DNA of 64,000 nucleotides, from assembly GCF_024714495.1 (NCBI RefSeq), contig NZ_JAMZMJ010000001.1:930001-994000 (forward strand), read 5' to 3'. This document shows, piece by piece, positions 1 to 10,649 of the stretch. Source of the stretch: Marinoscillum pacificum. GTDB lineage: Bacteria; Bacteroidota; Bacteroidia; Cytophagales; Cyclobacteriaceae. A model generated the notes under the pieces. It searched no databases. It was not told the origin of the DNA and worked only from the letters and a program-made list of their open reading frames with translations. Position 1 is the first letter of the stretch. Each line of letters starts with the position of its first letter. The translations under genes and the position numbers were made by a program.

Positions 1-1661
1 CCATCTTCAAATAGTTCACTATCTTCTGGAAATAGCCTGGAAATGTAATTTTCGAAAGTGGGAATTTCATCAGTTTCATAGTCATGCATTTTTAACCACT
101 GCTCTGAAAACTTACTCGCTTCAGGATGCAGCACATCATATTCAAACCATCCTGTATTGGATATCTTCTGAGCACGAAGTAAGTTATCCTCCATTACACG
201 ATACTCAGTAACGTCCTGTACGGTAACAAGTGTTTTTGTGGGTATTCCTGAAACATCTCTTATTATCTCTCCATGACTAGTAAGGTATTTCAACCGGCCA
301 GTAGAAGTCATAATACGGTATTGTATGTCTTTCCATTCTGTAACCTCTGGATTGGCGTAGAGCTGCTCTAAGTGATCAAGTACCACTTTGTCTTCTGCTA
401 TTACATATTCATTTAAATCTGACAGAGCATTGACAGTACTTGAATCTTCCAAATCAAATATCTCCCAAAACTGATCTGAACCATAATATTCACCAGTGCT
501 CATATCCAAATCAACCCAACCAACCTTCGAGTATACTTGTATTCTGTTAAGTTTATCTTCGAGCTGCCTTACCTTAGTAAAATCAAGTACACAACCTAAA
601 AAATAACACGGAACCCCATTAGAGTCTCGATCGACTTCCCCTACCACCTGAATGTATCTTGACTCACCTTTTTTATCATAAATTTTAAAACTGACGTTAA
701 AGGAACTATCATCACTATTCAGAACTTTTGTTATTTTCTCTCTTTCTCCAGGTGCGACAATTGCTCTAATCTGATCTAGTGTATTTAATTCCTTTGGGCT
801 GTAGCCCATGATCTCGTAAAAGCGTGTATCACCCCACACTTGCCCAGTGGTATAATCAATCTCGTGCCAGCCTAAACCGCTGATTTCCTTAGTTTTCTTT
901 AATAAAAGCTCAGATTCTTTCAGAAAAGTAATATCATGAAAGAGTCCAATGGTTTTAATTAAAACACCTCCTCGGAAAACACACTCTATTTGTAGGTCAT
1001 ACCAATAAGTAGTTCCATTAATCAAAAATTGGACATGCTGGGATATGTGTGGTTTCTCGGGTGTGGCTTTACTAATCTTATTTTCCAAGCGCGATGAATG
1101 AGCACTTAATGCATGTGATTTAAGCCAGTCAATGGAGAAAACCTCATCTTCCTGTAAATGAAGCAGCTTGTTTAAGTTGCTCTGCAAGGTTATTGCATTG
1201 TCAATTTTATCATGCACATACCAACCTATCGCTGCATGATTCGCTATTTTATCATAGACTTTTTCCTCTGTTGATTTTCTTGAATTGAAAAACTTCTCCG
1301 CAAACTCTAAACGACTGATGCTTTCATCAAAAGTATTATCAGTGAAAAAATCCTCAATCAAAACAAATCGTTGAGCATTGAATTCACTACAGCTTAGGTA
1401 AACAACTACCTTTTTCGCTGTAGGTTTATTTAAACGAAAAGTTAATGGTTCCTCAAAATCATTAGTCTTTAGTGCTTCGCAAAGCGAATTATACACGATT
1501 CTTCGATCCTCTGGATAAATAGCACTGATGACTGTCTTGAACGAAACATTGTGAGCTTCCTTTCCTTCAGATATGAAGGATTTGAACTTTTTTGATAAAC
1601 AAAAAATAGTGTTTTCGCCTATCCTGCTTACAGATTTTGTCCTACTGATTGATGTCATCAT
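1..1661 (-). CDS. Multi-PAS sensor protein, C-terminus cut by window edge
   Basis: An open frame runs from ATG at 1661 to the left edge without a stop (about 553 codons visible). The translation starts MMTSISRTKSVSRIG and contains at least three or four PAS/PAC-like units, recognisable by repeated patterns such as TGWFEYDV, SGLGWHEIDY and VGWVDLDM followed by LVTVQDVTEYR or FLGCVLDFTKVR. No signal peptide or membrane segment is seen, so it is probably a cytoplasmic sensor. The last visible PAS (RAQKISNTGWFEYD) closely resembles one in the 1109-residue kinase at 4775-8104 (RAQKISQTGWFEYD), which points to duplication. A histidine-kinase core is expected beyond the edge but is not visible. ATG 1661 is followed by a second ATG; either may be used. 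Confidence 0.8.
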   Translation of the reverse strand, partial: MMTSISRTKSVSRIGENTIFCLSKKFKSFISEGKEAHNVSFKTVISAIYPEDRRIVYNSLCEALKTNDFEEPLTFRLNKPTAKKVVVYLSCSEFNAQRFVLIEDFFTDNTFDESISRLEFAEKFFNSRKSTEEKVYDKIANHAAIGWYVHDKIDNAITLQSNLNKLLHLQEDEVFSIDWLKSHALSAHSSRLENKISKATPEKPHISQHVQFLINGTTYWYDLQIECVFRGGVLIKTIGLFHDITFLKESELLLKKTKEISGLGWHEIDYTTGQVWGDTRFYEIMGYSPKELNTLDQIRAIVAPGEREKITKVLNSDDSSFNVSFKIYDKKGESRYIQVVGEVDRDSNGVPCYFLGCVLDFTKVRQLEDKLNRIQVYSKVGWVDLDMSTGEYYGSDQFWEIFDLEDSSTVNALSDLNEYVIAEDKVVLDHLEQLYANPEVTEWKDIQYRIMTSTGRLKYLTSHGEIIRDVSGIPTKTLVTVQDVTEYRVMEDNLLRAQKISNTGWFEYDVLHPEASKFSEQWLKMHDYETDEIPTFENYISRLFPEDSELFED

Positions 1662-1776
1662 AGCTCATTATTGATCTAGTTCAAATTAAAAGAACAGTTG
1701 TAGACACAATAGAAAAGTACCTTACTGGACAAAAAATTACGTCTGAACCAAAAGCGGCATCTATGATAACTTCTTA

Positions 1777-2148
1777 CTAGAATGCTTGAATCAGCTTGTC
1801 AATTTGTGTGCTTAATTCATGGATATCATACGGTTTTTGAAGATGTGAATCTGGACAGTATCCCATGCTACAGAGTTCTTCTCCGTCAACAGGATATGCC
1901 GTTAACAAGAGAATAGGAATTTTCTGATATTCAGCATTCGATTTAACTGTTCTGGTGATTTCTCGCCCATCCATAAGAGGCATGATCAAATCTGAGATAA
2001 TTAAGTCTGGCTTTTGATTAGAAAGACTTTGTATTAACTCAACCCCATTGTTAAAAACAGCTGTATCATAGCCCAAAAAACAGATTAACTCCTGTAATGA
2101 CTCTCGAATCCCTTCATTGTCATCGACAATAAAAACCTTTTTGCTCAT
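1777..2148 (-). CDS. Single-domain response regulator (CheY-like receiver)
   Basis: This 123-residue protein is a complete receiver domain and nothing else. Visible features are the acidic pair D9-D10, the likely phosphoacceptor D53 in IISDLIMP, T83 and the conserved K105 before Pro. It has no output domain, so it probably acts through protein contact or as a phosphate shuttle or sink among the neighbouring kinases. It lies downstream of a REC-AraC gene on the same strand but has its own exact -7 promoter match at 2171-2178. That match leaves a leader of only about 15-20 bases. Which kinase phosphorylates it cannot be told from sequence. Confidence 0.88.
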   Translation of the reverse strand: MSKKVFIVDDNEGIRESLQELICFLGYDTAVFNNGVELIQSLSNQKPDLIISDLIMPLMDGREITRTVKSNAEYQKIPILLLTAYPVDGEELCSMGYCPDSHLQKPYDIHELSTQIDKLIQAF

Positions 2149-2170
2149 TCTAGTTGACGATAGTTTAACA

Positions 2171-2178
2171 CAAAAGTA
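2171..2178 (-). promoter_or_regulatory. Bacteroidota -7 promoter element upstream of receiver gene
   Basis: On the minus strand the bases read TACTTTTG, an exact match to the Bacteroidota -7 consensus TAnnTTTG, 22 bases before the ATG at 2148. No convincing -33 TTTG is seen at the usual spacing. The placement suits an independent transcript for the lone receiver. Confidence 0.5.
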
Positions 2179-2282
2179 GATTGGAGGATCTATCCATTTT
2201 CTTCCAATTAGTTGTTCAACCTTTTTCCTAAGCTCAAATGCAGAAAATGACCGATAACCAGAGACTTTAAAATGTCATTTGA

Positions 2283-3008
2283 CTAGATAATCATTTCTTT
2301 TGGCGAATACCCAAATTGCTCCTTAAATGACTTTGAAAATGAAGACAGGCTCTTAAATCCCGCCTTTTCAGCAGCCTCACTCACGTTGCAATCACCGGAC
2401 TCGAGGTGTGACTTAGCCTTAGACAGCTTAAAAATGCGTACATAGTCCTGAAAAGACTGACTGCTGTATTTTTTTAGTTTCTTTTGAAGGCCTGAAGTAG
2501 ACATTTTCATCAAAAGTGCGATTCCTTCTAAACTTATGTCATGAATATGTACTTCCAAAAATTGGTTTAACTTCAAAATAAACTCCCACTCAGGGTCATG
2601 TGACTGCTCTACATCCACCTGACTTCTGAGCAAATTATTTCGCAAGTTGATAAGGTTCCTGATCTTGTATGCCAGTTCCCTCAAATCGAATGGCTTCTTC
2701 ACATAGCCATCAGCACCTATTCTGAAAGTATTTAATTGCGTCTCAAAATCTGCTTTGGCAGTCAGCATAATTATAGGAATAGTACAAAATGACTTATCTG
2801 ACTTAAGACGTGAAAGCAGTTCAATGCCATCCATCCGTGGCATCATTATATCACTAATAATCAAGTGTGGTTTCTTCAGATTGATTAACTGTAAAGCTTC
2901 CTCACCGTTCTGAGCTTCCATGGTTAAATATCCCAGCGTATGAATCAAATCAGTTACCGTCTCTCTGATCCCAAAATCATCTTCTACAATTAAAATTACT
3001 TCTTTCAT
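2283..3008 (-). CDS. Response regulator, receiver plus AraC-type DNA-binding domain
   Basis: The protein has 241 residues from the chosen ATG at 3008. Residues 3-125 form a receiver (E9-D10-D11, phosphoacceptor D53 in IISDIMMP, K105). After a linker, residues 144-241 form an AraC-type helix-turn-helix output (SQSFQDYVRIFKLSKAK, then AEKAGFKSLSSFSKSFKEQFG). This is the soluble counterpart of the receiver-AraC end of hybrid two-component systems. An upstream in-frame ATG at 3038 adds ten residues not matching any receiver start, and sister regulators begin within six residues of the first strand, so 3008 is preferred. It is a clear paralogue of 8168-8905. Target genes are unknown. Confidence 0.88.
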   Translation of the reverse strand: MKEVILIVEDDFGIRETVTDLIHTLGYLTMEAQNGEEALQLINLKKPHLIISDIMMPRMDGIELLSRLKSDKSFCTIPIIMLTAKADFETQLNTFRIGADGYVKKPFDLRELAYKIRNLINLRNNLLRSQVDVEQSHDPEWEFILKLNQFLEVHIHDISLEGIALLMKMSTSGLQKKLKKYSSQSFQDYVRIFKLSKAKSHLESGDCNVSEAAEKAGFKSLSSFSKSFKEQFGYSPKEMII

Positions 3009-3293
3009 GGGGTGATAGTAAGATCGCTGTGTGAACATATATAGTCCTCTTACATTTAACTATGACAAAGTTCATATTGATTCACAATTAGGTAATCCAC
3101 CTACAGTTTAGGCTTTAATTTAGTAAATCACCTAGAAGGTCATTACGTATTTAACATAAGCCTTCAGCGCATTCAAAACGTACCGTACACGTATTTTATT
3201 GATTCAGTAAAACCCTCTTATATTCTGTTACGATTTTGACCAACTTTATCTAATCAAATTAAACAATGATAGTCACAAACAAAAATTAAGATT

Positions 3294-3698
3294 ATGATGG
3301 TTCATCAGGTTACTCGAAAGATAAAAAACAATCAGTCCTTACAACCTTCTACAAGCAATCGACCCTTAGTTAGCTACAGTAAACAAAAGGGATTATTAAT
3401 AATCAGAGAGGCAGCAAACAAACTAAACTCAGTTCATATAGAAGCAATCAAAACGATCATTTCTGATCATCTCAACAGCAGAAAAACCATCGATATTGTT
3501 CTACAGATCCGAGAAATCAGCAAATTAAACCTGCCTTTATTATTCAATCTGTTCAAGTTCTGTAAAGGCCTGGAAGAATGGGATAAAAGAATTGATATCG
3601 CCTGGTATATCTCTGATGAAGATATGAATATGAAGCGATTAGCTCATGATTTTCAGGAATTGTATCAATTAAACCTAAGAATATTCCAAATTAGCTAA
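3294..3698 (+). CDS. SiaC/DUF1987-like small regulatory protein
   Basis: This 134-residue protein sits alone on the plus strand inside a minus-strand signalling cluster. Its layout resembles the SiaC (DUF1987) family of regulatory phosphoproteins: an N-terminal strand pair (residues 25-37), a helix (47-60), a central strand (66-73), a helix (80-94) and a closing block with IAWYISDEDMNMK (residues 102-114) and DFQELYQLNL. SiaC proteins are switched by phosphorylation of a threonine in a motif like FNTSS. In a by-eye alignment that segment here reads ISKLNLP (residues 75-81), so the usual Thr seems missing. No SiaA phosphatase or SiaB kinase gene is visible nearby. A terminator follows at 3775-3797. 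The family call is moderate because it rests on pattern recognition only. Confidence 0.6.
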   Translation: MMVHQVTRKIKNNQSLQPSTSNRPLVSYSKQKGLLIIREAANKLNSVHIEAIKTIISDHLNSRKTIDIVLQIREISKLNLPLLFNLFKFCKGLEEWDKRIDIAWYISDEDMNMKRLAHDFQELYQLNLRIFQIS

Positions 3699-3774
3699 CA
3701 AAACTGATCCAAAAAGTGTAACTTGTGACTAACCTTCCAAATTAAATCCAGCTAATATCGGAAAGTAATTTTAG

Positions 3775-3797
3775 CCCATCCTCGGATGGGTTTTTTT
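3775..3797 (+). terminator. Rho-independent terminator after the SiaC-like gene
   Basis: A short GC-rich hairpin (CCCATC, loop CTCG, GATGGG) is followed directly by seven T on the plus strand. It lies 76 bases after the stop of the plus-strand gene and in the gap before the convergent kinase gene ending at 3802, so it fits the end of the 3294-3698 transcript. Confidence 0.75.
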
Positions 3798-3801
3798 CTG
3801 T

Positions 3802-4794
3802 TCAACTGAATGTTAGAAGGTATTCTGATCCACGACCTGCCTCACTACTGATCTCAATCTCTCCATTGATCTTTTCCATTCTGTAATACAGGTTTTTAAG
3901 TCCTCCATTACTTATCACTTGATTGACATTAAAACCAATACCATCATCATTGATCTTCACATAGTATTGGTTATCAACCTGGGTCAAAACAGCGTTGACT
4001 TCAGTGGCTTTTGAATGTTTTACCACATTCGTCATAATTTCAGATATAACAGGAATAATTTCTACACTCTTTGCAAGAATTGGCTCTTCTTCAAAACTGT
4101 AAGAATACGAAATGGAGATATTGGTATACTGATCAAAGTTCTTGATCATCTTGTCCAGTGTTTTTTGGAAACCATTGACCATCAAATCATGTGCAGCATT
4201 CCCATCAATAAGGTTTCTAATCTGCAAGAAAGCCACATCCAAACCACTTTTTATATTCACAAGATCCTTTTTTAGACTACCACCTTCCGGAATCTTGCCA
4301 TCAAGTATTCGCTCTATATTCATTTTCAGGCTAACCACCGTTTGCTGAACATTGTCATGGATGTCCATTTTCATCCTGTCGGTTTCTAGCTTTTTAATTT
4401 CCTGAACCAACTCATCTTGATGACTTAACCGATATTGGATACTCTCAAGTAGCTCTCGATGATCAAATGGCTTCATTAAATAATCATCAGCACCCATTTT
4501 CAACCCTTCTCGAATATTCTGTGAGTGTGACTTGGCACTCAAAATAATGAATGGTATGAACTTACTTTTACCAAATGACCGAACTGCTTCCAATAACTCA
4601 TAACCTGTCATTTTAGGCATCATCAAATCAGAGATAATGAGGTCTGGTTGGTGCTTGACTACTTTAAAGAATCCAGATTCACCGTCTTCAGCAGTTACCA
4701 CTTCATACCCACTGCATTCTAGTAGATCCTGAATGGTTTCACGAATGTTCAATTCATCCTCGACTACCAATATTCTATTTTTCTTCTCGATCAT
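3802..4794 (-). CDS. Receiver-histidine kinase fusion (HisKA_3-type kinase)
   Basis: This 330-residue protein has an N-terminal receiver (residues 6-125; D13, phosphoacceptor D56 in IISDLMMP, K108) joined by a coiled linker to a small kinase. The dimerisation helix carries MDIHDNVQQTVVSLK with likely phosphorylated H146. The ATPase part shows N256 in EIMTNVVKHS and a DDGIGF box at 284-289, as in the NarX/DegS/LiaS-type HisKA_3 kinases. There is no membrane segment or PAS domain, so its input is probably the receiver, phosphorylated by another kinase. Its start overlaps the end of the 1109-residue kinase gene by 20 bases, implying co-translation. HisKA_3 kinases usually target NarL-type regulators, but none is in the window. 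Confidence 0.85.
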   Translation of the reverse strand: MIEKKNRILVVEDELNIRETIQDLLECSGYEVVTAEDGESGFFKVVKHQPDLIISDLMMPKMTGYELLEAVRSFGKSKFIPFIILSAKSHSQNIREGLKMGADDYLMKPFDHRELLESIQYRLSHQDELVQEIKKLETDRMKMDIHDNVQQTVVSLKMNIERILDGKIPEGGSLKKDLVNIKSGLDVAFLQIRNLIDGNAAHDLMVNGFQKTLDKMIKNFDQYTNISISYSYSFEEEPILAKSVEIIPVISEIMTNVVKHSKATEVNAVLTQVDNQYYVKINDDGIGFNVNQVISNGGLKNLYYRMEKINGEIEISSEAGRGSEYLLTFS

Positions 4795-7700
4795 TATTAT
4801 TTGGAATTAAAACTGTAAAGCATGATCCATTACCTTCTTCACTTTCTACTGAAATGGTACAATTATTAATTTTAAGAAATTCTGAAGTCACTGATAAACC
4901 AAGTCCTGTACCTGGAATATGACTTACTTTATCAGAACGATAAAAATCGTTAAATATCCTAGAGATATTCTCTTTGCTGATTCCTAACCCAAAATCTCGA
5001 ACACTCAAAACAACCCGTTGCTCATCCGTGTAATCAATAGTCAATAAGGGGTTTGGTTGTGCTTCCGAGTATTTGAATGCATTGGTCACCAGGTTAAGTA
5101 TCGCCTGTCTTATTAAGCCTTCGTCCAATACAACATTGCGTTCCTGCCCTTTTACCTTAACAATTAACACCCTTCCATCCTTTTGCGTCACATCAATATC
5201 AGCCTTGATACTCTTGAGTAAATCAAACAGATTAATATCCGAGAACCTCGGCTTGATAGCCCCAGATTGCGCCCTTCCAAGCATTAATATATCCTCCATT
5301 AAACCCACCATCCGATCTACTTCACGAGTCAATCTAGCGGATACTTTTTCAGTTAAAGGGTCATTTTTACCAGACAATTCAAGCAACTGCATATTGGATT
5401 TGATGACGGTAAGTGGTGTTCTGAATTGATGTGAAGCCATAGATACGAAACTCGCTCTCATCCGACTAAGCTCACGCTCCATTTCCATGGTTTTTCTAAG
5501 TTCTTCTTCGGCTCTCTTCTGGGTTGTTATTTTCTCGATCATGACACTCACTCGCTCTTCGTTATCATAACCTTGAAAAATATGAACATGGGCGCGATAC
5601 CAATCAAAAACACCTCTAAGTGTATACTGGTAATCAAATTTTCCAGAATTTCCAGAATTAAAAGCTTCTATTACCATCTGACACAACCTCTGACCATTAT
5701 TATCAGACCACAGTTCTTGCAAAGGTTGATTGATAAAACTAGCAGCAGGGATATGAAGTTTACTCTCATCATTGACTATTACTTTTTCGAACGTCAAATC
5801 AGACTTGATGATAAAAACGATATCTTCTGTTGCTTTAATCATGGCCTGAAGATCCGTATTGGTTTTGACCAATTGTTCCTCAAACGCTTTTCTATCACTA
5901 ATATCGCGAACGGATAATTGAATTTTGACAGGGGTTTCTTCTATAAGAACTCCGATATTCGCTTCAACCCATAAAAACTGCCCATCTTCCCTAAACAGAC
6001 GAAAGGAGACGGTTGTAGATTCTTTAGCAAACAAAAGTTTAGGAAGTATATCTTTAGTAAATCGTACTCGATCTTCCTTGTGCATTAGCTGAGTGGCCTC
6101 CATCCCAAGTAATTTATACTTGGAATATCCTGTCAATTCCTCTACATAATCTGAAGCGAATGTTATGACCATTCCTTTGTCTCTGCCTTCCAGTAGCAAA
6201 ATTGCATCCCGACTATTTTCAGACATCAAACGATACTTGCGCTCACTTTCCTTCAACGCCCGCTCAGTCACTCTGGATTTAGTCACATCAATAGTAGTAC
6301 CGAATATCTTAGATGGAACCCCATCTGTATAAACAATTCTAGAACTATTACTGATATAGCGCTTATGACCGTATCTTGTAATAATTCGATAATCCAAATT
6401 ATTCCATTCATCCGGCATTCGCTTCAGAAACTCGGGCAGATTGGGGATTAATTGCCTATCCACTGGGTGTATTTTTTCTAAAAAGGCATTTAGACGCATG
6501 GGTTGATTATCAAAATCATGCATATCCAACCATTCCTTAGAAAAACTACTGGCGGCCGGCGTTATAATATCGTATTCAAACCATCCGGTCTGACTGATCT
6601 TTTGGGCACGTTGGAGTCTCTCTTCGAGTGATTTGAACTCCGTAATATCCTGTACGGTACCCAATACCTTGACCATCTCACCAGAAACAGGATCAAACTC
6701 ATATTGCCCATTGTTTTGAATGAATCGATAATTTCCATTAGTCAGAACAATACGAAACTGAAAAGAATAACCAAATTCATAACTCAGATATTCTCTTCCT
6801 ATTCGATCAACCACAGGCAAATCATCCGGATGAACTTTTTTTAGAAATTCCTTACGATCATAAGCGTCCATCTCCAAAATTTGTAAAAACTCGGCTGAAA
6901 CGTCTATATCCTGCGTCTTCACATCTACCTCGTACCACCCAAGCCTTGCTAATTCATTAGCGTGCGTGAGTTGTAACTCCTTTTGCTTTAGGTCTGTAAT
7001 ATCTTTTGTTACGGCAACAATTTTGAATGGCCGATTATCTATTGGAGAAGATAACACTTGACCAGTACTTTCCAAATACCTTAATGTACCATCGCTCAGT
7101 ACTACTCGATAATGAAATGTTGGCCAACCTTCAAAGACTTCATATAACTTCTTTCGTGATTCAATCACTCGTTCATGATCCTCAGGATGTATACAAGCGA
7201 GTAATTCATTCAATGAAGGCATCCGGTTCAGATTCAAACCATGCATTCGCAAGTACTCTGGTGAAACTGATGATTTTTCTTTGTTTTTAAGATTGATTTC
7301 GTACCACCCTACCTTAGCAATCTCCTCCACATGCTCCAGCCTACCCTGTGTTAAGTGATATTTAGTGGTGTTTTCGAAACTACCCATCATTCGTACCAAT
7401 CGAGACTCAATCCAAATAGATGTCCCTCTACTTAAACCATACAAAAGCTCGCCATTGACAATGTGTCGAGTTCGAAATTCGAAATCAGGTGAATCAGGAG
7501 TCAGGTTACGCATCACCTGCTTAAAAATCTGAAGATCCTCAGGAAAAACAGTACCAGCAAAGTTTTTATAGCCTATCCTACCCTTATTTTCTACGCCCAA
7601 CAATGAAAAAATTTGACTTGACCAGAGAAATAAATCCAGCTCTGAATGGTATTCCCAATAACCTATATCATTGAAAAACTCCATTAAGTGGTCCTTCTTT

Positions 7701-8104
7701 AACTCCTTGGCAATATCCCCGCCAGGCATTACATCCATCTGAGTTTCCAGGTTAGGCTTAAACTGCAATAGAATAGCTAATTCTCCATCAAATTCTTCCT
7801 GCTGGACATACAGGTTTAATTTCCTATCATTCTCATCATTTTTCAACCTAAATTCTACAACATATTCACTTGAAGTCTCCTCCGTAGAGAGATAGTATAT
7901 ATCCATAACCTTAACACGGTCATTGTCATGGATCATGTCATACAGTAAATTAAGATCTGGATTAGGTTTAGGATTTACTCCAAGTATCTCAAACATACCT
8001 CTAGACCAGTAGCAGATATTTTTTTCTGGTACATTAAAAATGAAGGCTCTTCGTAAGTTATCCTTCGTAAGGTTACTTTGCTTTATGGCAGAAGCTTGTT
8101 TCAT
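4775..8104 (-). CDS. Soluble histidine kinase with about seven PAS domains
   Basis: This 1109-residue kinase has no visible signal peptide or membrane helix. About seven PAS/PAC units occupy residues 25-118, 142-250, 262-372, 385-490, 503-610, 620-738 and 750-860. They are marked by repeated GWYEV/GWFEY starts and VTKDIT, VQDITEF and VRDISDRK ends. A HisKA domain follows with H892 in SHQFRTPLTVIKSN. The HATPase domain shows N1004/N1008, a DFGLG box near 1037 and GTGLGL at 1065-1070, so the core looks active. It overlaps the downstream REC-kinase gene, and a REC-AraC regulator lies just upstream on the same strand. It most likely phosphorylates one or more of the neighbouring receivers. The ligand is unknown. 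Confidence 0.9.
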   Translation of the reverse strand: MKQASAIKQSNLTKDNLRRAFIFNVPEKNICYWSRGMFEILGVNPKPNPDLNLLYDMIHDNDRVKVMDIYYLSTEETSSEYVVEFRLKNDENDRKLNLYVQQEEFDGELAILLQFKPNLETQMDVMPGGDIAKELKKDHLMEFFNDIGYWEYHSELDLFLWSSQIFSLLGVENKGRIGYKNFAGTVFPEDLQIFKQVMRNLTPDSPDFEFRTRHIVNGELLYGLSRGTSIWIESRLVRMMGSFENTTKYHLTQGRLEHVEEIAKVGWYEINLKNKEKSSVSPEYLRMHGLNLNRMPSLNELLACIHPEDHERVIESRKKLYEVFEGWPTFHYRVVLSDGTLRYLESTGQVLSSPIDNRPFKIVAVTKDITDLKQKELQLTHANELARLGWYEVDVKTQDIDVSAEFLQILEMDAYDRKEFLKKVHPDDLPVVDRIGREYLSYEFGYSFQFRIVLTNGNYRFIQNNGQYEFDPVSGEMVKVLGTVQDITEFKSLEERLQRAQKISQTGWFEYDIITPAASSFSKEWLDMHDFDNQPMRLNAFLEKIHPVDRQLIPNLPEFLKRMPDEWNNLDYRIITRYGHKRYISNSSRIVYTDGVPSKIFGTTIDVTKSRVTERALKESERKYRLMSENSRDAILLLEGRDKGMVITFASDYVEELTGYSKYKLLGMEATQLMHKEDRVRFTKDILPKLLFAKESTTVSFRLFREDGQFLWVEANIGVLIEETPVKIQLSVRDISDRKAFEEQLVKTNTDLQAMIKATEDIVFIIKSDLTFEKVIVNDESKLHIPAASFINQPLQELWSDNNGQRLCQMVIEAFNSGNSGKFDYQYTLRGVFDWYRAHVHIFQGYDNEERVSVMIEKITTQKRAEEELRKTMEMERELSRMRASFVSMASHQFRTPLTVIKSNMQLLELSGKNDPLTEKVSARLTREVDRMVGLMEDILMLGRAQSGAIKPRFSDINLFDLLKSIKADIDVTQKDGRVLIVKVKGQERNVVLDEGLIRQAILNLVTNAFKYSEAQPNPLLTIDYTDEQRVVLSVRDFGLGISKENISRIFNDFYRSDKVSHIPGTGLGLSVTSEFLKINNCTISVESEEGNGSCFTVLIPNNNDREEK

Positions 8105-8167
8105 GAGACAATAAAAATAGAATGCAAAAACCCTTCCTATTGTGGAAGTACGTCCCCAGACAAATAA

Positions 8168-8905
8168 TTACGTCTGTACAACAACTTTGGAAGGGGGCAA
8201 TCCAAAATGCTCTTTGAATGAATCGGAAAAATGAGCAAGGTTCTTAAATCCACTCATCTGAGATGATTGACTAACGTTGCACTTACCTGACTGTAAAAGT
8301 GCTTTAGCCTTGCTTAGCTTGTATCTTTTTAAATAATCGCTGAAAGTATGTGAAGTATAGTGCTTTATTTTTTTTTGCAACCCTGAACCAGACAGGTTCA
8401 TTGATTCAGCAATTTTATCAAGAGTCGACTCATTCATATTATCCCTAATGGCCTCATTGAGTTGTGATAGAAATGAATGTTTCTTGATCGCTATTTCAGG
8501 ATCAAAGTCCATATCTCCTCGTAAAAGTATTGACTCTTGCAGTGCAAGTAAATTATTGATTTGAAAGAGTAACTCTACTGCATCAAATGGCTTCTGCACA
8601 TAAGCATCCGCTCCTATTGTGAAGGAATTCCACCTAGTGAACTGATCCACTTTTGCCGTGAGAATTAATACAGGAAGATGATGATAAATGGTACTTGATT
8701 TTACTAACTCCAATAAACGCAATCCATCCATTACAGGCATCATGATGTCGCTCACTACTAAATGTGGGTTAATCTCTTGAATTTTTTCCCATCCATCTTT
8801 ACCATTAATGGCTGAGCTAACCTGGTACCCACACGAATACAGTAAATCTATGAGGGTTTCTCGTATACCGAGATCATCCTCAACAACTAATACGTGATAG
8901 TTCAT
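8168..8905 (-). CDS. Response regulator, receiver plus AraC-type DNA-binding domain
   Basis: From the chosen ATG at 8905 the protein has 245 residues: a receiver (E9-D10-D11, phosphoacceptor D53 in VVSDIMMP, K105) and a C-terminal AraC helix-turn-helix (TFSDYLKRYKLSKAKALL, then SGFKNLAHFSDSFKEHFG). The frame stays open to an ATG at 9079, but that adds 58 residues with no receiver character. The start MNYHVLVVEDD matches its paralogue at 2283-3008. It lies 63 bases upstream of the big PAS kinase on the same strand, so it is the natural partner of that kinase. DNA targets are unknown. Confidence 0.87.
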   Translation of the reverse strand: MNYHVLVVEDDLGIRETLIDLLYSCGYQVSSAINGKDGWEKIQEINPHLVVSDIMMPVMDGLRLLELVKSSTIYHHLPVLILTAKVDQFTRWNSFTIGADAYVQKPFDAVELLFQINNLLALQESILLRGDMDFDPEIAIKKHSFLSQLNEAIRDNMNESTLDKIAESMNLSGSGLQKKIKHYTSHTFSDYLKRYKLSKAKALLQSGKCNVSQSSQMSGFKNLAHFSDSFKEHFGLPPSKVVVQT

Positions 8906-9044
8906 AATCGGAGCATTACGGTGATTGCGCAAAAAATAGCTAGTGGCGCATGTCTCAAAAAGGAATTTACAGAATTCCAAGATCAACTTATCTGATAACT
9001 GATAATGGTTCCATCTTGACCAAAACTTATAGGTAAAATACCTA

Positions 9045-9239
9045 TCACGTAACTGTTTCAACGAGCAGCTTTCGAACATTCGAACTATTCAAAACATGTA
9101 TTATCATTAATAACTGTTTTAATGTGAAATGATCAAAGCCGTTAATGATAAAATAATGATCAGCAACTTCTTGAAAGTTCACACGATTACCATCTACCCC
9201 AAACTGAACACCATCAAAAAAGAGAATATTTTCTTCCAT
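9045..9239 (-). CDS. Possible small protein, 64 residues, unknown
   Basis: An ATG at 9239 opens a 64-residue frame beginning MEENILFFDGVQFGVDG and ending RKLLVETVT. Composition is balanced and not obviously spurious, and it would lead the minus-strand transcript into the REC-AraC gene starting at 8905. No family is recognised. It could equally be chance coding in the 430-base gap between the REC-AraC and der genes. Without it, that gap holds only the der promoter element and a run of AT-rich sequence. Confidence 0.3.
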   Translation of the reverse strand: MEENILFFDGVQFGVDGNRVNFQEVADHYFIINGFDHFTLKQLLMIIHVLNSSNVRKLLVETVT

Positions 9240-9335: not shown

Positions 9336-10649
9336 ATGGCAAACATCGTAGCAATAGTAGGAAGACCCAATGTTGGTAAGTCAACTTTTTTCAACCGGTT
9401 GGTGGAAAAAAAGCAAGCCATAATGGACAATGAAAGTGGGGTAACCAGAGACCGTCATTACGGGTACTCTGAGTGGAATGGAAAGTCCTTTACAGTAATT
9501 GATACTGGAGGATATGTAGAAGGATCGGAAGACATTTTTGAGGGAGCAATCCGTGAACAAGTAAAAGAAGCTTTAGAAGAAGCCAACGTTATTCTGTTCA
9601 TGGTTGACTGTCATACTGGGTTGCATGGTTTAGACCAGGACTTTGCCAATGTGGTTCGTGAGATTAAGAAACCAGTAATTATTGTTGCCAATAAAGCTGA
9701 TAATGCTGAGAAATCCTATATGGCAAGTGAGTTTTATCAATTGGGTATCAGCGAACAAATACTTCCAATAGCATCGATTAGTGGTGCTGGAACGGGAGAT
9801 TTATTGGATGAAGTAGTAGAATACTTTGAGCCAGATCCGGAGGTTGACACAGAGGAAAACGCGGTTCCTCGAATCGCAATTGTCGGCAGACCAAATGTTG
9901 GAAAATCCTCTTTCCTAAATGCTCTGTTAGGCAAGGATCGATCTATTGTAACGAACATAGCCGGAACCACTAGAGATGCAATAGATAGTCGATACAATCT
10001 TTTCGGAAAAGACTTTATACTTACCGACACTGCTGGGATACGTAAAAAAGCCAGAGTAAAAGAAGATATTGAATTCTACTCTGTTTTGAGGGCTATTCAA
10101 GCATTGCAGGATTCTGATGTGTGTGTGGTAGTTTTAGATGCCACTAATGGAATTGAAGCTCAAGATCTCAACATTATTAACCTGGCACATAAGTACAAAA
10201 AAGGCTGTGTGATCATGGTTAACAAGTGGGACTTGTATGAGAAAGATCACAAGTCTGCAGATGACTACAAAAAGCATATCGCTGAGAAACTTGGGCCTCT
10301 GTCCTATATTCCTGTTGTCTTCACTTCTGTATTAACGAAGCAAAGGATATTCAAAGTAGTAGAATTGGCTCTAGAAGTAGCTGGTAATAAACATAAGAAA
10401 ATTAGTACTTCTCTGCTAAATGAGAAAATGCTGAAGGAAATTGAAAATTACCCACCTCCTGCTGTGAGAGGAAAGCACATCAAAATCAAATACATAACAC
10501 AACTTCCTACCAACTCTCCAACGTTCGCATTTTTCTGCAACCATCCTAAGGATATTAAAGAATCGTACGAGAGATTCCTGGTCAATAAATTGAGACTTCA
10601 TTTCGATTTTGAGGGAGTGCCACTTAAAGCAGTATTTAGACAGAAATAA
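9336..10649 (+). CDS. der: Ribosome biogenesis GTPase Der (EngA)
   Basis: The 437-residue length is typical. Two tandem GTPase domains are visible: the first P-loop is GRPNVGKST at residues 9-17 with DTGG at 56-59 and NKAD at 119-122. The second is GRPNVGKSS at 184-192, followed by DTAG and NKWD. A C-terminal KH-like domain follows (KYITQLPTNSPTFAFFCNHP). Der is essential for 50S subunit maturation and acts in the cytoplasm. The start is fixed by the promoter element seven bases upstream. The following SprT-like gene abuts it with no gap, so the two are likely co-transcribed. Confidence 0.97.
   Translation: MANIVAIVGRPNVGKSTFFNRLVEKKQAIMDNESGVTRDRHYGYSEWNGKSFTVIDTGGYVEGSEDIFEGAIREQVKEALEEANVILFMVDCHTGLHGLDQDFANVVREIKKPVIIVANKADNAEKSYMASEFYQLGISEQILPIASISGAGTGDLLDEVVEYFEPDPEVDTEENAVPRIAIVGRPNVGKSSFLNALLGKDRSIVTNIAGTTRDAIDSRYNLFGKDFILTDTAGIRKKARVKEDIEFYSVLRAIQALQDSDVCVVVLDATNGIEAQDLNIINLAHKYKKGCVIMVNKWDLYEKDHKSADDYKKHIAEKLGPLSYIPVVFTSVLTKQRIFKVVELALEVAGNKHKKISTSLLNEKMLKEIENYPPPAVRGKHIKIKYITQLPTNSPTFAFFCNHPKDIKESYERFLVNKLRLHFDFEGVPLKAVFRQK

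Follow-up and report, generated by a model that had tools for sequence, protein, structure and literature searches.

The region between era and der of Marinoscillum pacificum holds ten signalling genes. We see about an even chance that they form a lineage-specific two-component island that was enlarged by reiteration of a kinase-regulator set and in which, judging from the proteins encoded, the wiring would run through several receivers. The window, i.e., the whole stretch of DNA analysed, comprises 64,000 nucleotides (G000:C11:930001-994000); its left edge cuts the island, the left part of which was read beyond that edge. The set, built of parts of known kinds, is rare, and its growth appears to have proceeded step by step inside one genus. 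Empty-site, one-set, two-set and three-kinase versions of a single chromosomal junction occur within one genus and family. They provide a natural series for the question of how specificity is retained, lost or exchanged among reiterated kinase-regulator sets. A literature search of partial coverage retrieved no description of the island's gene set.

Genes and borders

The left border is era (C11:922227-923108), 6.9 kb left of the window; the features inside the window are compiled in Table 1. Read from era, the order is a NarL-type regulator of 226 aa on the plus strand, then HK874, a REC-x-REC protein (336 aa), HK1228, REC123 and RA1, all on the minus strand, then the SiaC-like gene (plus) and finally RECHK330, HK1109 and RA2 (minus). 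The first three of these lie left of the window. The seven signalling genes that the initial annotation had named at 1-9079 are all present. Pfam assignments of the island genes exceed the cut-offs, except for the HisKA_3 match of RECHK330 (3.1e-4, 21.6 vs 24 bits), which stays just under; the HATPase_c match of the same protein lies above. The four receivers counted initially are too few for the full island, which has seven receiver domains in six proteins. None of them is fused to a PAS kinase according to Pfam, as had been noticed, and the output kinase, of which at least one had been expected, is represented by the putative REC-HisKA_3 protein.

Table 1. Features of the island and its right border, in window coordinates
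Feature	Position	Strand	Remarks
HK1228, N-terminal 553 aa	1..1661 (ORF 3-1661)	-	whole gene L004:12975-16661, 1228 aa, remainder left of the window; Pfam PAS_3 x4, PAS_4, HisKA, HATPase_c
REC123, single-domain receiver	1777..2148	-	Response_reg 2.8e-19
RA1, REC-AraC regulator	2283..3038	-	Response_reg 9e-29, HTH_18 2.2e-16
Palindrome TAGGTRNWTTACCTAA, two copies 31 bp apart	3086..3134	-	divergent RA1/SiaC promoter region; 0 and 2 mismatches; direct repeat D1
Divergent SiaC-family protein, 134 aa	3294..3698	+	PF09345 2.5e-9, 37.3 vs 24.5 bits cut-off
RECHK330, putative REC-HisKA_3-HATPase kinase	3802..4794	-	Response_reg 4.2e-28, HATPase_c 3.1e-8
HK1109, multi-PAS HisKA kinase	4775..8104	-	Pfam PAS_3 x5, HisKA, HATPase_c
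RA2, REC-AraC regulator	8168..8905 (annotated ORF to 9079)	-	Response_reg 2.2e-23, HTH_18 1.9e-16
Palindrome copy	9027..9044	-	upstream of RA2 core start; 1 mismatch
der GTPase	9336..10649	+	right border of the presumed insertion

Two operons are probable. Operon A, RA2-HK1109-RECHK330, is headed by RA2, and operon B, RA1-REC123-HK1228-REC-x-REC-HK874, by RA1. RA1 and RA2 both possess the Pfam domains of REC-AraC response regulators and the motifs SDIMMP and KP. The core of RA1 may start at Met11 (window 3008). RA2 probably starts at Met59 (window 8905), since the first 58 residues of the annotated frame are absent from both congeners. HK874, HK1228 and HK1109 (874, 1228 and 1109 aa) are multi-PAS HisKA sensor kinases with Pfam matches above cut-off, each with an SHQFRTP H-box and a GTGLG motif. 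No island protein contains a hydrophobic stretch of membrane-helix strength, and the kinases are therefore predicted to be cytoplasmic.

Among the 73 family genomes that possess both border genes, era and der are found on one strand and at most 0.6 kb apart in 53. In two they lie within 0.6 kb on opposite strands, in six, the present genome among them, the gap exceeds 1 kb but stays within 20 kb, in one they are far apart on one contig and in 11 they are on different contigs. The site is empty in G061, where the right flank (SprT, ParA) is the same. In view of the adjacency in 53 genomes and of this empty site, an insertion at era-der is the simplest reading of the island.

Sets in relatives and their history

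The reiterated set would consist of a REC-AraC regulator, a cytoplasmic multi-PAS HisKA kinase and then a receiver-bearing second-tier protein, the latter being a putative REC-HisKA_3 kinase in set A and a REC-hairpin(His)-REC protein in set B. Conservation in relatives, proposed initially as a check, was found: all core genes recur in the congener G312, and a one-set version exists in G313. The latter reads der-RA2-HK1108-RECHK-NarL, followed by more kinase genes up to era; its RA2 is split over two contigs that abut inside the gene, the start of C276 encoding an RA2-type C-terminus. The two-set state of G312 is RA2-HK1128-RECHK-SiaC-RA1-HK746-NarL, with orthologues of RA1 (75% identity) and HK1109 (69%). 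Compared with G312, from which REC123 is absent, the present genome adds REC123, HK1228 and REC-x-REC between RA1 and HK874 and has three kinases. A metagenome-assembled genome, UBA7330, contains two related sets, both elsewhere than at era-der. One (L027) is RA-HK1229-RECHK, with the same gene order as here; the other (L191) is REC-RA-HK1138-RECHK-RECxREC, its REC-hairpin-REC protein being 35% identical over the full length. As REC-x-REC and a lone receiver also occur at L191 of UBA7330, both belong to the set recurrently, and neither is an accident of the present genome.

Within the genus, all genomes in which the era-der junction is readable (G312, G313, G311 and G314) have signalling genes there. 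In G007, era and der do not lie together, and the set is missing. The kinase family, searched at 1e-90, is absent from the 240 other genomes of the order. Other signalling genes also reside at the junction. Ethylene-receptor-like kinases are seen there in G313 (L190:8418-10433, minus) and G311 (L173:9495-11561, plus); both match ETR1_N (PF25487, E about 1e-29 to 1e-30) and they are 50% identical to each other. The gap of G314 (L174:5797-14690) contains a canonical SiaC with the Thr kept, a PAS kinase, a REC-SpoIIE phosphatase and receivers, one of them sharing 36% identity with the second REC of REC-x-REC.

The REC-AraC proteins had been called paralogues, and indeed RA1 and RA2 are 45% identical and, within the genome, mutual best matches at 223 bits, the next one reaching 136. 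In trees with long outgroup branches, the five genus copies and the L027 copy of UBA7330 form a clade (98/91) apart from the AraC ends of HTCS-type proteins. RA1 groups with its counterpart in G312 (100/98), RA2 with those of G312 and G313 (100/98), and RA1 is weakly paired with UBA7330, not with RA2 (95/41). The kinase tree places HK1109 with its relatives in G312 and G313 (94/99) and HK1228 as sister to HK874 plus HK746 of G312 (99/99). HK1109 and HK1228, the two PAS kinases of the window, can accordingly not be maintained as the duplicated pair that had been proposed: the sister of HK1228 is the third kinase, HK874, outside the window. As HK874 and HK746 group together and HK1228 stays outside the pair, HK1228 was either lost in G312 or reached the present genome later and by a different route. 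Also rejected as proof of a recent duplication is the near-identical PAS stretch. The segment RAQKIS[NQ]TGWFEYD is common to the whole kinase family, e.g., as RAQEISNTGWFEYD in HK874 and LAQKISKTGWFEYD in UBA7330, and by itself dates no duplication.

Was the module duplicated in place, as suggested at the outset? That kinase and REC-AraC sets are reiterated is supported; "in place" is neither rejected nor favoured. Trees constrained to keep the genus copies in one group are worse by 1.2 log-likelihood units for the REC-AraC proteins (AU p 0.247) and by 3.7 for the kinases (AU p 0.166). Such small differences speak against the view that the second set was acquired horizontally, from a lineage like UBA7330, instead of arising by duplication in place, and so does the lack of any visible mobile-element gene in or beside the island, the G+C content of which (37.3%) is only slightly low relative to the flanks (38.9-40.3%). 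A transfer would, however, comply with RA1 being nearer to UBA7330 (54%) than to RA2, with their weak pairing in the tree and with a patchy distribution, a REC-HisKA_3 homologue at 1e-35 being present in 2 of 241 genomes of the order, this one included. We consider it somewhat unlikely. By sequence comparison, the data fit a reiteration of the set without dating the first split.

Putative wiring and a common palindrome

The PAS kinases would respond to signals that are cytoplasmic or diffusible, autophosphorylate and pass phosphoryl groups on to several separate receivers. Direct transcriptional output would come from the REC-AraC proteins, and the lone receiver might buffer. RECHK330 is a candidate second-tier kinase, the activity of which would be set by its own receiver and which may phosphorylate the NarL-type regulator. 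Its receiver Asp, HD H-box and ATPase motifs are conserved in six homologues. NarL-type regulators are the usual partners of HisKA_3 kinases. Here the NarL-type gene is the one nearest to era, and in G313 it directly adjoins RECHK. Neither UBA7330 locus has a NarL gene beside it, and the pairing may thus not be general. The NarL-type gene of G312 is broken by an in-frame TAA (L164 about 17270, minus), which makes it a pseudogene or reflects an assembly error.

The REC-x-REC protein could relay phosphoryl groups between receivers via a conserved His. Its probable layout is REC-helical hairpin-REC, with an acceptor Asp in both receivers and an invariant His152 in the linker that is conserved with UBA7330. 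The linker is predicted as a two-helix hairpin with low confidence (pLDDT about 60 there, pTM 0.43), and Pfam yields no HisKA match in it. A fold search with the model returned receivers; over the whole chain all superpositions were poor (PleD, TM 0.35), and the search is thus uninformative on the hairpin. If it were a phosphotransferase, the protein would serve as a compact hub for relay, with a layout that has been little described. In its most elaborate form, the wiring would be a two-tier cascade, the PAS kinases controlling the REC-HisKA_3 kinase via its receiver, the ATPase-less REC-hairpin-REC hub linking the sets and one palindromic operator being shared. In this full form we hold it to be quite unlikely.

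A simpler arrangement dispenses with any branched relay. Classical two-component systems, two or three in number and insulated from one another, would be neighbours by chance: HK1109 with RA2, HK1228 and HK874 with RA1 and REC123, and RECHK330/NarL separate. Each operon indeed has a REC-AraC and a kinase of its own at the head, identity between the sets has fallen to about 45%, which is enough for specificity to separate, and G313 works with a single set. Yet the REC-HisKA_3 gene directly follows and overlaps the kinase gene at five loci (by 20 bp between HK1109 and RECHK330, by 1-11 bp elsewhere), and a palindrome upstream is common to both operons. Overlap and palindrome suggest linkage within and between the sets, and the insulated arrangement appears to us somewhat unlikely.

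For the multi-receiver wiring, the palindrome TAGGTRNWTTACCTAA, found upstream of both RA1 and RA2, would mean common control, by NarL more likely than by the REC-AraC proteins. The 31-bp spacing of the pair upstream of RA1 is conserved in G312, and weaker aligned copies precede RA2 in G312 and G313. With up to three mismatches, the window contains 20 matches vs 7 expected, some sites being counted twice because they are palindromic; none of 100 shuffles reaches 20. A matrix built from the window's three sites only gives 23.7 for TAGGTGTTTTACCTAATT in G313 (L190:10495), the best of 60 simulated sequences scoring 17.3. This exact recurrence of the palindrome precedes a kinase-REC-kinase-NarL2 operon, which ends in a second NarL paralogue, by about 60 bp. 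The pattern was picked after the window sites and the aligned congener copies had been seen, so that only the G313 match is an independent test. The copies of G312 are weaker (best 16.0, within the simulation range), and the palindrome was not found when the regions preceding the UBA7330 sets were searched. Two-fold symmetry of a site is more in keeping with a NarL-type dimer than with an AraC-type regulator; the direct spacing of 31 bp would also suit the latter. The gap between era and NarL (L004:8109-8432) contains half-site-like copies, CACCTATTTTAGGTA and TAGGTAAATCACCA, in a number not above chance.

Known systems and the SiaC-like protein

The hybrid systems of Bacteroidota known as HTCS likewise combine a HisKA kinase, a receiver and an AraC-type DNA-binding domain, and they are the nearest outgroup of RA1 and RA2 in the tree. 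An HTCS, however, is a single membrane-spanning chain, whereas the REC-AraC regulators of the island are encoded apart from the kinases, which are predicted to be cytoplasmic and have PAS sensors. The Pak-SdrG-PhyT-PhyR multi-kinase phosphorelay of Sphingomonas (PMC5898713) resembles the island in its several sensor kinases and lone receiver and, should the proposed wiring hold, also in a His-bearing phosphotransfer intermediate and a branched input. It differs in that other protein families are used throughout; moreover, the island lacks a sigma-factor mimic, and its presumed intermediate is flanked by two receivers.

The 134-aa protein of the island falls into the SiaC family, which recalls the SiaABCD threonine-phosphorylation switch (PMC7647112). 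In Pseudomonas, SiaB phosphorylates T68 of SiaC in LLYLNTSSIK (PMC7647112). In the column of this Thr (NTSS motif), the island protein has Lys and its 47% orthologue in G312 has Ile, and genes for the phosphatase SiaA, the kinase SiaB and SiaD are not among the ten island genes. A SiaC gene in a working SiaABCD switch was therefore rejected, phosphosite and partners being missing. A PDB sequence search with the protein gave a chance match only. The present genome has twelve SiaC-family genes, several of them in tandem (e.g., G000:C28:76827, C31:23105, C3:63043-68401).
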